The position numbers and the translations under genes were made by a program. Below, piece by piece: positions 47,679 to 52,602 of a stretch of 64,000 bases of DNA. Location: positions 1-64,000 of the IMG/VR virus record IMGVR_UViG_3300006735_000030, one strand, 5' to 3'. Origin of the DNA: a virus. A model generated the notes under the pieces. That model had not been told where the DNA came from. It ran no database searches and was given only the letters and a program-made list of their open reading frames with translations. Every line of letters starts with the position of its first letter. Position 1 is the stretch's first letter.

Positions 47679-48443
47679 TTACCGATTAAATAACTCGTCA
47701 AATGCAGATGAAGCATCATCAACAGTAGTAGTTTCTTTCAGAGTCTTTTTAGTCTCTGTAGTTTCTACTGTTTCTTCTTCTCCACCTTCTTTGTTTTCTG
47801 GGTTTAACCACTCATTAAGAACGTTAGTAAGTTCATCATAACCAAGTTCGTTATAAACTTCGTTAAGATTAACTTGGTTCTCCAAGCTGTTTTCCATCAA
47901 TTTAGAATCCTCTGATATAGGTGTTTGATTTGGTTTAACACGAATACCAGTGGTAGGAAATGATTTACCAGTTTCTTCTGCGGTCTTAAACTCTACAACA
48001 ACATCACGACCATTGGTTGCATCTGAAATGTCACCATAGTCTGGGTCAGCGATTATAGATAGAAGTTCTTGGTATACAGTTTTACCAAAACCCCAAAATT
48101 TAATACCATCGTTCTCGGCTCCACGAACTAATACGGGTGCAAAAGTTCTCATCTTAGCTTCCAACTTTTTACCAAGTCTCCAATCGTCACGATTACCACT
48201 TGATTTCAATTTGTCGGCAAACTCTTCGATAGGGTCTGGTCTTCCAAAAGAAATTGGTGATAAGTAAGTACGTCCACCTAAGTCATAATGAAAATACAAC
48301 TCAATAAAGGGTGTAGATTTATTATACTTGAATGGTACTATTCTTACGATTTGTTTTCCTGGTGATGGTTTCCAAAGATTATTGGAACGTTGATTAGTAG
48401 TTTGTAACTGGTCTAAACGTTTACGTATTGCATCAATATCCAT
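47679..48443 (-). CDS. 32: Single-stranded DNA-binding protein, gp32-like
   Basis: The 254-residue protein starts with a short helix and NQRSNNLWKPSPGKQIVRIVP, has the OB-fold blocks YFHYDLGGRTYLSPISFGRPDPI, FAPVLVRG and IKFWGFGKTVYQELLSIIADPDYGDI, and ends in an acidic tail (GGEEETVETTETKK then DDASSAFDELF). This is T4 gp32: basic N terminus for cooperativity, DNA core, acidic tail for protein contacts. The Cys zinc site of T4 is not present. The tail resembles that of other marine T4-like gp32. Confidence 0.9.
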   Translation of the reverse strand: MDIDAIRKRLDQLQTTNQRSNNLWKPSPGKQIVRIVPFKYNKSTPFIELYFHYDLGGRTYLSPISFGRPDPIEEFADKLKSSGNRDDWRLGKKLEAKMRTFAPVLVRGAENDGIKFWGFGKTVYQELLSIIADPDYGDISDATNGRDVVVEFKTAEETGKSFPTTGIRVKPNQTPISEDSKLMENSLENQVNLNEVYNELGYDELTNVLNEWLNPENKEGGEEETVETTETKKTLKETTTVDDASSAFDELFNR

Positions 48444-48507
48444 TTTATATTCTCCTAATTTATTATTTGTTAATTATTAATCAAAGATGTAACCTTGATT
48501 TATAATA

Positions 48508-48536
48508 TATATAACCTTGTTAATTAAAACGTTCAA
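48508..48536 (-). promoter_or_regulatory. Sigma70-like promoter of gp32
   Basis: On the minus strand TTGAAC (48531-48536) is followed by 17 bases and TATATA (48508-48513). It is preceded by AATAGC, the same extension as the promoter at 49071-49099. It starts about 60 bases before gp32. Confidence 0.65.
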
Positions 48537-48555
48537 GCTATTTTATGTTGGCAAT

Positions 48556-48625
48556 AAAAAAAGGGTTCGGTAGTTTTTTAAGTTTTAATATAGTGGAAAC
48601 TAAAAATCGGTTGAACCCTTTTTTT
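48556..48625 (-). terminator. Terminator of the structured RNA
   Basis: GGGTTC (48563-48568) pairs with GAACCC (48613-48618). Seven A bases (plus strand) on one side and seven T on the other make it bidirectional. On the minus strand a run of seven U follows the stem. An inner stem of TAGTTTTT with AAACTAAAAA extends the hairpin. Confidence 0.7.
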
Positions 48626-48771
48626 AAAATTTGAAAATTTGGGGATGTGAGATTAACGATTACTCACAACTTTCAGCTTAGATTTTTTTTACCTTGTACC
48701 TAACACTCATCAGTTACGATGATTCTTCTCAAAGTGGTTAACTTCATTGAAGTGAGTACAACCTCTGTGTT

Positions 48772-48807
48772 ATTACCTTATCTCTCTAAGATTAGATTAT
48801 TCGGTCA
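48772..48807 (-). repeat. Two-box module, copy B
   Basis: The module is ATTACCTTAT (48772-48781), a 14-base variable hairpin-prone spacer, and ATTATTCGGTCA (48796-48807) on the plus strand. Both boxes are identical to those of copy A at 48961-49000. It lies inside the candidate RNA. Confidence 0.6.
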
Positions 48808-48960
48808 TGAAGTTGGATTTCAGTTTTACCCTTACCAACAACAAGGTCAAAGAATCGTGTTCTTTATTTATTCTGAAAGTACATTCCGAGTCATATGTCT
48901 ATGAATCACTTACAACCCACAATATCTAGCAGGTGGATAGTCACCACAACTTCTCGGTAG

Positions 48961-49000
48961 ATTACCTTATGAGCTTCAATGGTCACTCATTATTCGGTCA
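48961..49000 (-). repeat. Two-box module, copy A
   Basis: The module is ATTACCTTAT (48961-48970), an 18-base spacer forming an ATGAG/CTCAT hairpin, and ATTATTCGGTCA (48989-49000). Identical boxes with a different spacer in copy B suggest a repeated RNA motif where the conserved bases, not the stem sequence, matter. Confidence 0.6.
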
Positions 49001-49070
49001 ATCCCATAAAGAGTTAATTACTCTCTTTACTTTCTAATTTTCAATTTGTCAATAAACTTGTATATATATA

Positions 49071-49099
49071 TGTATACACTAAAAAACCAAAACGTTCAA
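49071..49099 (-). promoter_or_regulatory. Sigma70-like promoter of the structured RNA
   Basis: TTGAAC (49094-49099), 17 bases, TATACA (49071-49076) on the minus strand. Extension AATAGC precedes the -35. The transcript would start near 49064, 47 bases below the stop of the TonB-domain gene. Confidence 0.65.
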
Positions 49100-49110
49100 G
49101 CTATTTTTAA

Positions 49111-49446
49111 TTATTTAAATAATATTGGTAATTGGTAGTTTACTTTTACTGGTATTCCATTTTGTTTAGCTGGTTCGAATTTAATTGCCATAACTCTGTC
49201 TATTATAGCATCATTTAGAGCTATATTAAATGTATCCATAATGTATGGTTCTACAATTCTACCATTTTCATCTACTGTAAATTTTACTAAAACCTTTCCT
49301 CTAAGTTCAGAAGTATCTATTTTTGAAATATGGTCATAACTTAAATGAAATGGTTTTTTCATTATTGGTCGTTGTTGATTCCCACCCGTTGGTAAGTCTT
49401 GGGCTACCAACAAGCCCATTAGTAATAAACACAAAAGGTGCCTCAT
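49111..49446 (-). CDS. Exported TonB C-terminal-domain protein
   Basis: I start at ATG 49446, where an SD GGAG is present; the frame is open further to 49488. The 111-residue protein has a signal peptide (MRHLLCLLLMGLLVAQ) and then one TonB_C-type domain: GKVLVKFTVDENGRIVEPYI, IIDRVMAIKFEPAKQNGIPVKVNYQLPILF. There is no inner-membrane anchor that would remain and no Pro-rich spacer, unlike TonB itself. If the signal is cleaved, the product would be a free periplasmic TonB domain. It is last in the pilin cargo operon. Confidence 0.8.
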   Translation of the reverse strand: MRHLLCLLLMGLLVAQDLPTGGNQQRPIMKKPFHLSYDHISKIDTSELRGKVLVKFTVDENGRIVEPYIMDTFNIALNDAIIDRVMAIKFEPAKQNGIPVKVNYQLPILFK

Positions 49447-49516
49447 ATTGTTCTCCGCAATTGATTGATTAACTCCTTTCGTCTTCAAAAATATATATAA
49501 ACATTTTTTAAAAAAT

Positions 49517-50143
49517 TTAGGTATTTTTCATCTTTATTTCTAATTGTGAAAGCAAATTATTAATTTTTTCTAATTTAGGATGGTCTGGGTCTGTCTCAAT
49601 AAGTTTGTCTTTTGTATTCATCAACTTACCATATGCTTTTTGTAAATCAATTAGAGCAATTCCTTTCATACTTCGTCTATAATATAAATGATGTAATGCT
49701 TCATCCTCTGCTTCTGCACCTCGAACACCTGCTACCGCCGTAATCTGTTCTACTTCTCCATATATAGTATCTTCTATATCTGTTATCTCAACCCAAACCG
49801 TATTATCCCACATAGCATCTAAATCAAAATCCATGTCTTCTATTTCTGCCATCTCAATACTATCTTGTTTTGCCTTTTCTATCTTTCTTAGTCTATCTCT
49901 TTCGGCAAATTCTCTATTTAAATTTACTGTACGAATTGAATCACATTCAGATATCCATCCACCATAACCTTTCCAAGCAGGTGAACCTTTGTAATCTCTG
50001 TATTCTGTATCATCACAATCTTGTCCGTAGGCTTTACCTCGTTTAAATTCAGATGTTCTTGTGATACCTTGGTCTGCAAAAACTTGTTCGTCTACTTGTG
50101 AATATATAACACTTATTGATAATAAAAGTGTTAGGTACTTCAT
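49517..50143 (-). CDS. Exported periplasmic protein, unknown function
   Basis: The 208-residue protein has a signal peptide (MKYLTLLLSISVIYSQ) and then a mostly helical, charged body with DCDDTEYRDYKGSPAWKGYGG, a Cys pair and AVAGVRGAEAEDEALHHLYYRR near residue 138. The AGVRGAE block is a pattern I have seen in FCB-group envelope proteins, without known role. Four bases of overlap link it to the upstream membrane protein gene. Confidence 0.65.
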   Translation of the reverse strand: MKYLTLLLSISVIYSQVDEQVFADQGITRTSEFKRGKAYGQDCDDTEYRDYKGSPAWKGYGGWISECDSIRTVNLNREFAERDRLRKIEKAKQDSIEMAEIEDMDFDLDAMWDNTVWVEITDIEDTIYGEVEQITAVAGVRGAEAEDEALHHLYYRRSMKGIALIDLQKAYGKLMNTKDKLIETDPDHPKLEKINNLLSQLEIKMKNT

Positions 50144-50565
50144 AATACTTCTATCTCTGTACCTATACCTCTTTTATCGTGGTCTGTTCCAACTACTATT
50201 GTATAGTATCCTGGGTCTACATCAGATGTCCATTCAGTTCTGTAAAGTTTCCAAACATATGTTTCTGTTCGTTCTCTACCATCACGAAATCTATCTAATG
50301 CTAGTGGTGTTTGGTGAACTAATTTACCATTGAAATCAAACATATATAATCTTGTTTTATCCCTCTGTACTTTGTATCTAATCTTTACACAAGGGCCACC
50401 TTTTCTGTCATAAGCTCTCCAAGCTACTATCGGTGTTTCATCAAAATATTCCATTGATGGTGGTTTTACTTTTGGTATTTCATTTGGGTCTGGTCTGAAA
50501 AACACATACCCAAAACATAAAGCTATTCCAATGTATAGTAAGTATTCTTTTATTTGTTCATTCAT
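50140..50565 (-). CDS. Membrane-anchored protein with FlgD-like Ig domain
   Basis: The 141-residue protein has one N-terminal hydrophobic span (YLLYIGIALCFGYVFF) and then a beta-rich domain with RLYMFDFNGKLVHQTPLALDRFRDG and WTSDVDPGYYTIVVGTDHDKRG. The last part resembles FlgD/T9SS-type Ig modules used in exported and surface proteins. It sits between the pseudopilins and the periplasmic protein, overlapping each by a few bases, so it is probably part of the same envelope system. Confidence 0.6.
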   Translation of the reverse strand: MNEQIKEYLLYIGIALCFGYVFFRPDPNEIPKVKPPSMEYFDETPIVAWRAYDRKGGPCVKIRYKVQRDKTRLYMFDFNGKLVHQTPLALDRFRDGRERTETYVWKLYRTEWTSDVDPGYYTIVVGTDHDKRGIGTEIEVL

Positions 50566-51005
50566 TATTGTGCTATATACCTCACTGGTTCTTCTGCTAA
50601 TTCAAATGATGTAGAGTCATATGTGTAATAATAAATCTCATCGTCAGGTCTTTGATGAAAGATAGCAGGTTCTCCTGCATCAATCAAACTAAACTGCCAT
50701 TCATTATCTTCATCAGGTACACCCAACTCTAAATTTATTTTCAAATTACGGGTTCTACCAAATGTTGTTAATGGATTGAATGGCCAATTTTCAGTTCCAG
50801 TCTCTAATAGTTTATCACTTGCATATTGTTCACATCCTGCCCATATTGTGTTTACTGTAGTCTTTTCAGCTCTTACTGACGCTTTATGTAATACATGAGT
50901 CATCTTAGGTACTGCAACAGCGGCTAATATTCCTAAGATGACCATAACCATTACTAATTCTACTAAAGAAAAACCTTCATTCATTTTCTCTTTCAGTATT
51001 TTCAT
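50565..51005 (-). CDS. Type II/IV pseudopilin 1
   Basis: The 146-residue protein has the prepilin peptidase site MNEG/FSLVELVMVMVILGILAAVAVP at residues 8-33, with Gly before the cut and Glu at position +5 of the mature form. A hydrophobic helix and a C-terminal globular domain follow, with a WPFNP segment as in its two sisters. It should be exported by the Sec system and assembled like a pilin if a prepilin peptidase (host or phage) is available. Confidence 0.9.
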   Translation of the reverse strand: MKILKEKMNEGFSLVELVMVMVILGILAAVAVPKMTHVLHKASVRAEKTTVNTIWAGCEQYASDKLLETGTENWPFNPLTTFGRTRNLKINLELGVPDEDNEWQFSLIDAGEPAIFHQRPDDEIYYYTYDSTSFELAEEPVRYIAQ

Positions 51006-51016
51006 TATTCTTTATC

Positions 51017-51481
51017 CTAATCCAAATCAGGTCTATATACTACCTGGTCTGGTTGATATGGTGGATTGGAATACCCAATCTCACCTGTTGTTGAATTATA
51101 AGTCCATATTGCTAGACTATCTTCTTTTCTTCTATGAACAATTCGATTTTTGAAATCATTACTCTTATCAGCAGTAAATATCCAATCACTATCGTCCATT
51201 TCTTTCATCATAACGGTTCCACTTTTGTCGTAATATTGTGGTACTTTATTTAAAGCATCAAAAGGATTATCTGGCCACTTCATAACACCATTGTCAATAA
51301 ACTCTTCTTGACTATAAGTATCTAAAGCGGCGACTAAATTAACAAGTACTCCTTGTTCAGAAGCCGCTTCAGATTGTCTTACGATATTAGTGAATCTCGG
51401 AATGGAGACTGCGGCTAATATACCAATGATTACCATTACCATAATAAGTTCAACTAAGGTAAATCCGTTTTTATTGTCCAC
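51017..51481 (-). CDS. Type II/IV pseudopilin 2
   Basis: The 154-residue protein has NKNG/FTLVELIMVMVIIGILAAVSIP near its start, with Glu +5. The globular part includes MKWPDNPFDALNKVPQYY and a late DWIFTADKSND, shared in pattern with pseudopilin 3. It overlaps pseudopilin 3 by 11 bases. These are paralogs made by tandem duplication. Confidence 0.9.
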   Translation of the reverse strand: MDNKNGFTLVELIMVMVIIGILAAVSIPRFTNIVRQSEAASEQGVLVNLVAALDTYSQEEFIDNGVMKWPDNPFDALNKVPQYYDKSGTVMMKEMDDSDWIFTADKSNDFKNRIVHRRKEDSLAIWTYNSTTGEIGYSNPPYQPDQVVYRPDLD

Positions 51482-51923
51482 TTACCAGACTTTCTCTACT
51501 GCCTAATGTACCAGTAGTATCTGTGTCTGTTCCTGTGTTGATTCCAGCATCATATTCCCACTTCCACCTCGTGTTATCAGAACGTTGGTGAGTAATATAT
51601 GCGGGGTCACCATCCACAAATGTCCACTCATTGTCGGTATCAGCATTTGTACCATCAGTTGTGTATGTTTGTGGTTTGTCCTTTAAAGCGTCAAATGGAT
51701 TATCTGGCCATATAGCTCTTCCACTATCTATGAGTTTATGAACTCCGTAGTTTTCAAGTGCTACACTAATATTACTTATGACTGCATCTTCGGAAGCTTC
51801 TTCAGCTTTCTCGATAGTCTCTAAGTATCGTGGAATTGCAACAGCTGATAATACTCCTAAGATTATCATCACCATTATCAATTCGATTAATGTAAAACCA
51901 TCATTTGATTTTTTTATTTTCAT
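51471..51923 (-). CDS. Type II/IV pseudopilin 3
   Basis: The 150-residue protein has SNDG/FTLIELIMVMIILGVLSAVAIPRY at its N terminus with Glu +5. It has AIWPDNPFDALKDKPQTYT in the middle and a C-terminal Thr/Gly/Asp-rich tail. It is the closest paralog of pseudopilin 2. Confidence 0.9.
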   Translation of the reverse strand: MKIKKSNDGFTLIELIMVMIILGVLSAVAIPRYLETIEKAEEASEDAVISNISVALENYGVHKLIDSGRAIWPDNPFDALKDKPQTYTTDGTNADTDNEWTFVDGDPAYITHQRSDNTRWKWEYDAGINTGTDTDTTGTLGSRESLVSGQ

Positions 51924-51960
51924 TGTGTTTCTCTTTCCGAACTTTCGTTCTGTTTTTTGG

Positions 51961-52602
51961 TTAAGGTACTAAAGTTTTATTTAGTTCTGCGGGATTCTCT
52001 GTGTCTATTACGACAAGAGCAGGTGCTTGAGCATCTGTACCACTACCACTACCTGGTATTACTAAGTAAGCGTATGAACCATCCTGGAATGGGGATGATA
52101 TTCCGTTGTTACCAAAGTCTTTTTTGAAGTCTAATGCTCCATCAGTATCAAATACTACTGAAGTTTCAAGGTTCATCCAATTACCTTGTAAAGCGTCATC
52201 GTCATCTGAAGCAGTTGAGAATATGTAAACAAACTCACCTAAATCTGATTCATAGTTTTCTTTAGAATCAAGAATAGTTTCCATGTAGATTTCTAAAGCT
52301 TCATCTGTAAGTTGTCCTTCAGACAATGTAACACCACCAACTGGTTGGTCATATTTTGATTGTCCAGGAAATCTTCCCTTACCCTCTTCGGATAATGTTT
52401 GGTTATAAAAATTGTTAGCAACTGTTACAATCTTGTCAATGTTTGCTATAGTTTTCTTTTCTTTAGCACCAGCACCGATTTGTCCAAATTTTGGAGCGGC
52501 TGTTGTAGCAAGTGTTGCCATCATAGCGGTAGTAACAGCAAATTCAGCAAGTGAATTACCTTTGTTACTCTTTATTCTTTTAAATAATTTTGTGAACTTC
52601 AT
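51961..52602 (-). CDS. Variant pilin-like protein (pseudopilin 4)
   Basis: The 213-residue protein has KSNKG/NSLAEFAVTTAMMATLATTAAP near residue 15, a prepilin-like signal with Glu at +5 and a hydrophobic helix rich in Ala and Thr in place of Val and Ile. The rest is beta-rich and acidic with ALDFKKDFGNNG and a final SGTDAQAPALVVID. It may be the major subunit or a minor pilin of the same apparatus. It is first in the operon and has an SD AAGGAAC. Confidence 0.7.
   Translation of the reverse strand: MKFTKLFKRIKSNKGNSLAEFAVTTAMMATLATTAAPKFGQIGAGAKEKKTIANIDKIVTVANNFYNQTLSEEGKGRFPGQSKYDQPVGGVTLSEGQLTDEALEIYMETILDSKENYESDLGEFVYIFSTASDDDDALQGNWMNLETSVVFDTDGALDFKKDFGNNGISSPFQDGSYAYLVIPGSGSGTDAQAPALVVIDTENPAELNKTLVP

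Follow-up and report, generated by a model that had tools for sequence, protein, structure and literature searches.

A non-coding RNA of two manA-type units with exchanged strands upstream of gp32 in a 64-kb stretch of viral DNA

The locus upstream of gp32

The window analysed here is the whole stretch of 64,000 nucleotides from virus record IMGVR_UViG_3300006735_000030. The region of interest lies between the gp32 gene and a group of genes at 49111-52602, which encode a TonB C-terminal-like protein (PF03544) and several prepilin-like proteins, adjoining replication genes; the one prepilin-like protein tested carries the N-methylation motif PF07963. The features of the locus are as follows.

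47679..48443, minus strand: gp32 single-stranded DNA-binding protein (Pfam PF08804, 41.7 bits against a cut-off of 26.8)
48505..48536, minus strand: separate candidate gp32 promoter, TTGAACGTTTT ... TATATATAT, with the second exact copy of AGCTTGAACGTTTT
48555..48624, minus strand: terminator hairpin (48624-48563, folding well) and U tract (end at about 48556)
48642..49030, minus strand: core of the double manA RNA, with 19 covarying helices (from the nhmmer family, pair counts and a tree-aware covariation test)
49071..49099, minus strand: candidate promoter TTGAAC-17-TATACA (TTGAAC 49099-49094, TATACA 49076-49071), expected start at about 49064

A preliminary description of this DNA had taken 48444-49110 to be free of genes, and no conserved gene was found there: of the 44 homologs only 4-6 keep the small ORFs (e.g., 48719-48904 on the plus strand) open, and ORF lengths are not preserved modulo 3, for which reason a protein-coding reading was ruled out. 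We are highly confident that the locus holds a conserved non-coding RNA with a core of two tandem manA-type units. The RNA is some 490-510 nt long, and the predicted fold of the 510-nt transcript has an energy of -114.4 kcal/mol (z = -2.39).

The window contains just two perfect copies of AGCTTGAACGTTTT, one at the promoter of the RNA and the other in front of gp32. The letters of TTGAAC-17-TATACA, proposed earlier as a minus-strand promoter, are present and the region upstream of the RNA is kept in close relatives and conserved in most copies, though it matches sigma-70 poorly; a scan with the sigma-70 consensus did no better than chance (2 other sites versus 3.3 in shuffles). The U-tailed terminator, also proposed earlier, was borne out. 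Its apex AGUUUCCACUAUA (48601-48589) is conserved, and among relatives its lower stem varies on both arms, with 24 different 3′ arms. A terminator hairpin was found no more than 260 nt downstream of the core in 73 of 81 distinct copies, with the U tract mostly 60-80 nt after the core; a stricter scan of 150 nt, in which near-duplicates were counted, gave 127 of 172. The apex AGUUUCCAC is present on most of these hairpins and the same apex serves as a terminator elsewhere. A hairpin with apex AGUUUCCAC(U/C)AUA recurs in contigs L177, L179, L180, L181, and L195, also after other genes, and in some contigs (L177, L179, L180) it directly follows a promoter-like region, the manA core being absent. 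The gp32 promoter anticipated behind the terminator likewise has a candidate in the window and a comparable region between terminator and gp32 in relatives, in most of which gp32 is thus separated from the RNA by both a terminator and a promoter region.

The gp32 leader itself (48499-48444) consists of a hairpin, ATCAAGGTTACATCTTTGAT, followed by an A/T-rich run to the ribosome site, and is kept with changes in relatives; its layout resembles that of T4 gene 32 autoregulation. In one clade (L013 1735-1890, L014, L015, L035) an extra block of about 140 nt, CTCGGAGGATAACGATGACATA...GGATGGTATCTAAAGAGGGACGG, lies between core and terminator, for which no Rfam match was found. In L025 (540-910) the double manA is immediately preceded by a further long stretch that lacks genes and ends in a U-tailed hairpin.

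Identity and architecture of the RNA

An Rfam scan matched the 3′ half of the RNA (48642-48840, minus strand) to manA (RF01745) with 73.4 bits against a gathering cut-off of 55.2, and manA was the only Rfam family to reach its gathering score across the entire 64-kb window. The 5′ half gave a weaker manA match, at 16.3 bits in a local scan and 28.4 bits in a scan of the whole record, both below the cut-off. The Rfam models of GOLLD, ROOL, OLE, HEARO, and tmRNA had no match in the window, and ARAGORN found no tmRNA. The preliminary description was therefore right in proposing that a promoter and a terminator flank a large structured phage RNA, for which covariation among homologs is strong, and wrong in calling it a new class, since half of it belongs to a family reported in marine phages in 2010. 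By descent the RNA belongs with manA; what is new is that two manA units are fused in tandem, strand-swapped, and usually terminator-ended. In the openly accessible literature that was searched, neither a double nor a strand-swapped manA is described, and single instances may be present, unrecognised, in the metagenome set of 2010.

Starting from the RNAalifold result, a structure with 96 pairs in 19 helices was assembled by hand and evaluated on an alignment of 45 homologs less than 95% identical to each other. Its parts in the window are as follows.

48848..49030, minus strand: unit A (weak manA matches; unit-A covariance model), comprising P1A 49030-49006, GGGAU 49005-49001, the GACCGAAUAA box and hairpin 48998-48964, the branched arm P3A 48957-48886, the P4 5′ strand 48880-48873 and then a linker hairpin
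48642..48847, minus strand: the P4 3′ strand (48847-48841) and P5 hairpin (48839-48812) of unit A, followed by unit B, which comprises a box and hairpin 48805-48775, the cloverleaf arm 48772-48701, P4 strands, the P5 hairpin 48667-48647 and AUCCC 48646-48642
49005-49001 with 48646-48642, minus strand: outer closing helix GGGAU/AUCCC, from the 5′ end of A to the 3′ end of B
48880-48873 with 48676-48669, minus strand: swapped helix L1, ACUUUCAG of A with CUGAAAGU of B
48847-48841 with 48697-48691, minus strand: swapped helix L2, ACCUUGU of A with ACAAGGU of B
48957-48953 with 48890-48886, minus strand: long-range stem CCGAG/CTCGG
48790-48785 with 48682-48677 (span 48677..48790), minus strand: pseudoknot CUUAGA/UCUAAG

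Across the 45 sequences 96.9% of cells in this structure are paired, versus 34-41% when the partners are slid by 1-3 columns, and 71 pairs show changes on both sides. Because kinship among sequences can mimic covariation, a tree-aware null was used, in which the substitutions of an inferred tree were replayed at random positions; this follows the idea of R-scape with our own script and 40 null alignments. Against it 36 of the 96 pairs are significant, with at least one in each of the 19 helices, and 11 column pairs score higher than any pair in the 40 null alignments, all of them within the structure. The box hairpin and cloverleaf-like arm of unit B (helices 11, 12, and 14-18) are 82-100% paired and covarying. 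The pseudoknot, which joins the loop of a hairpin in unit B to the strand preceding P4, is 100% paired, with three pairs changed on both sides and one significant covarying pair. Two other candidates were rejected: an outermost A/T-rich helix P0, taken from the fold, pairs no better with its own partner than with that of another sequence (8.87 versus 8.78), and the RNAalifold helix 214-217/224-227 was dropped as L2 pairs better across all sequences.

The main claim is based on the helices between the units. The outer helix is paired in 100% of cells, with two pairs changed on both sides and one significant covarying pair, and in L1 all eight pairs are changed on both sides, two of them covarying significantly. 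L2 is paired in 95.9% of cells with one significant covarying pair, and its longest paired run is 6-8 in every sequence versus 3-5 for within-unit alternatives. For P4 as a whole the swapped runs average 8.0 and 6.8 over the 45 sequences, against 3.8 and 3.7 for the alternatives within units. Thus P4 does not form within a unit, as it does in single manA, and nor does the GGGAG/CUCCC helix: the inner closing strands are absent, and the homologous helix links the GGGAU of A to the AUCCC of B over 360 nt. The architecture can be viewed either as a manA with a second, circularly permuted manA in its P4 loop, or as the outcome of a tandem duplication in which strands were exchanged. Both long-range stems named in the preliminary description, CCGAG/CTCGG and TTTCAG/CTGAAA, are real; the latter, which is L1, was thought to enclose two hairpins and encloses far more, joining the halves of the RNA. 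The hairpin inventory given there had missed the outer GGGAU/AUCCC and ACCUUGU/ACAAGGU helices, the pseudoknot and the repetition of the fold.

That unit A is homologous to manA is likely. The Rfam model gives weak matches at its exact position in several relatives (19-39 bits, top 39.1), and with a covariance model built from unit A only, the three best matches in 420 kb were single cyanophage manA RNAs (23.4, 16.1, and 14.4 bits; best E 0.008) and the second match in the window was unit B. A plain sequence profile of unit A did not find single manA (best E 0.49). As the sequence profile misses what the covariance model finds weakly, the homology of unit A rests on structure, the Rfam matches at the site and the shared boxes.

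Distribution, neighbours and single manA RNAs

Relatives were gathered as 80 related virus contigs through the gp32 protein, and many more through RNA patterns independent of gp32. An nhmmer profile found 186 nearly full-length copies in marine virus contigs, 119 of them distinct; every copy measures about 410 nt and contains both halves. The partial copies inspected are located at contig ends, and no single-unit member was found in the double family. The Rfam manA model run on twenty large records found one manA locus per record, and its cut-off was exceeded in 9 of 50 gp32-derived contigs and in 16 of 20 of a second set (two of which are single-manA contigs). When the RNA of the window and that of a distant relative were compared by blastn with 50,697 records of isolated phages, only short chance matches were found, and in the isolates with the closest gp32 (Microcystis phage Mel-JY01 and Flavobacterium phage immuto) the space upstream of this gene measures only some 110 nt. 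A lone RNA-pattern match in a bacterium (Lederbergia) was rejected as a chance match at a gene start.

The gp32 gene lies within 2.5 kb downstream in 97 of the 112 contigs found by RNA pattern, and in others the RNA precedes hsp20-like genes (named by the look of the protein) or others. In some relatives a methyltransferase-like gene separates the terminator from gp32, and a few double copies (L088, L374, L414) are without a clear terminator and have a gene close behind. The leader of the hsp20-like gene downstream of the RNA in L178, L374, L386, and L429 has a conserved stretch, GAATTCGACGCTCAAATGAGGTCGATA, which is perhaps another structured leader.

The manA motif has been known since 2010 in marine phages, where it was classed as a cis-regulatory riboswitch candidate (Weinberg et al., 2010, PMC2864571). 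The literature searched yielded no report of a ligand. In an alignment of 27 diverse single copies from cyanophages the order is P1, GGGAG, the GACUGAAUAA box and hairpin, a branched arm, P4, the P5 hairpin and CUCCC. There P4 pairs and covaries within the unit, and the GGGAG/CUCCC helix, marked "pseudoknot?" in 2010, is invariant in the single copies and covarying in the double RNA. Among 91 single copies (L239-L247, L249-L368) a promoter that departs from TTGACA/TATAAT at no more than one position stands just upstream in 56, versus 1 of 600 background windows, so that the +1 end of transcripts seems to be marked by manA. A start codon follows 11-50 nt downstream in about half of the 91 cases. 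Genes, tRNAs, U tracts or terminators come after these single loci.

The double RNA shares with manA RF01745 the GACYGAAUAA box and hairpin, YAAGGYAAU, the branched cloverleaf-like arm with its GUGGUG/GUUGUA loop, stem P4, the terminal P5 hairpin, the GGGA(G/U)...(C/A)UCCC closing strands and its occurrence in marine phages. The positions are also alike, as a single manA lies directly before gp32 in P-HM2 and manA has been reported before ibpA (hsp20-type) genes. It differs in having two units per RNA (about 500 versus 200 nt), a closing helix and P4 that pair between units, a unit A under the Rfam cut-off, and usually a terminator at its end rather than a gene into which it leads directly.

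Tandem riboswitches are usually laid out as self-contained domains side by side. The double manA resembles them, and candidates such as the tandem glnA RNAs (PMC2864571), in carrying two related RNA domains in tandem, whereas its domains share and exchange helices. With GOLLD, ROOL, and OLE it has in common that it is a large non-coding RNA, GOLLD being found in phages and prophages (PMC12286853); those RNAs bring together several copies of one fold as separate assembling molecules (PMC12286853), whereas here two copies are joined in one chain, with no Rfam match to those families. As a working model only, it may be likened to the HK022 put RNA, a phage RNA at a transcript start with terminators after it, which as nascent RNA can act as an antitermination element (PMC9378689).

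What the double manA may do

We propose that the RNA would be made from its own promoter at the same stage as gp32, given the promoter box that they share, and would be ended at its own terminator. The folded molecule would then act as a two-headed scaffold, with its two manA heads binding a phage or host factor. Its origin would probably be the duplication of a single manA leader, the two near-identical P4 stems of which then paired across. We lean towards a free-standing phage RNA rather than a cis-acting one, if only by a little more than even confidence; scaffolding or factor binding by the double manA is a more tentative suggestion, to which we would give somewhat less than an even chance. 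The evidence weighs towards a separate RNA and away from a gp32 switch: the RNA has its own ends, gp32 has its own promoter region, genes are inserted between the two, and the core is sometimes absent. The contigs with promoter and terminator but no core, together with the methyltransferase-like insertions, speak against a dedicated gp32 switch, and the position of the RNA before hsp20-like and other genes was also counted in favour of the free-standing reading. Against it, single manA occupies the position of a 5′ leader, with start codons close, and the terminator-poor copies have a gene close behind.

With gp32 next in 97 of 112 contigs, control in cis could operate. The double manA would in that case be a leader that folds co-transcriptionally and sets the read-through of the terminator into the gp32, hsp20 or methyltransferase gene, as a ligand-sensing attenuator or as an antiterminator like HK022 put. 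Such a leader would suit the near-consensus promoters by which single manA heads transcripts, the terminators close behind the double RNA, the methyltransferase-like gene that directly follows the terminator in some relatives with no promoter seen between, and the cis-regulatory classification of manA by Rfam and Weinberg et al., with HK022 put as a precedent (PMC9378689). However, downstream of the terminator there is a separate promoter region for gp32, both in the window and in relatives, and the lower stem of the terminator varies freely; we consider this explanation possible though rather unlikely.

Two further readings fare much worse. It might be supposed that an ordinary single manA riboswitch candidate, unit B, controls gp32 and that unit A is a chance or unrelated neighbour, as unit B alone passes the Rfam cut-off and the single manA of P-HM2 lies directly before gp32. 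Yet unit A is present in every full-length homolog and three covarying helices pair the two units, and because of this inter-unit covariation the supposition is already contradicted; we give it very little credence. The element could otherwise act mainly as DNA, or through being transcribed, for example in a transcription-dependent start of replication by gp32, and it does adjoin replication genes (gp32, a RecA-like recombinase and a DnaB-like helicase). However, its 19 helices change on both sides and keep G-U pairs, as expected of RNA, and it is placed before other genes too, which makes a DNA element most improbable.

A further and speculative view, which we think has some chance of being correct, though well below even, is that the double manA is a new kind of free-standing phage RNA, in which duplication of a fold gave rise to a permanent, single-chain version of a strand-swapped "dimer". 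By extension, single manA may also dimerise by swapping, and manA may be a general element of 5′ transcript ends or an RNA scaffold in marine phages, and not a metabolite riboswitch.

Since 2010 manA has ranked as an orphan among the candidate riboswitches, and more than 100 double versions now supply strong covariation for its structure, including the helix once marked "pseudoknot?" that never varies in the aligned single copies. The manA fold is able to leave the leader position and stand with its own terminator, and in the double RNA the exchange of strands between duplicated domains is clear and open to testing. As this RNA regularly lies beside gp32 and is apparently transcribed separately, the role of manA in infection can be tested directly.
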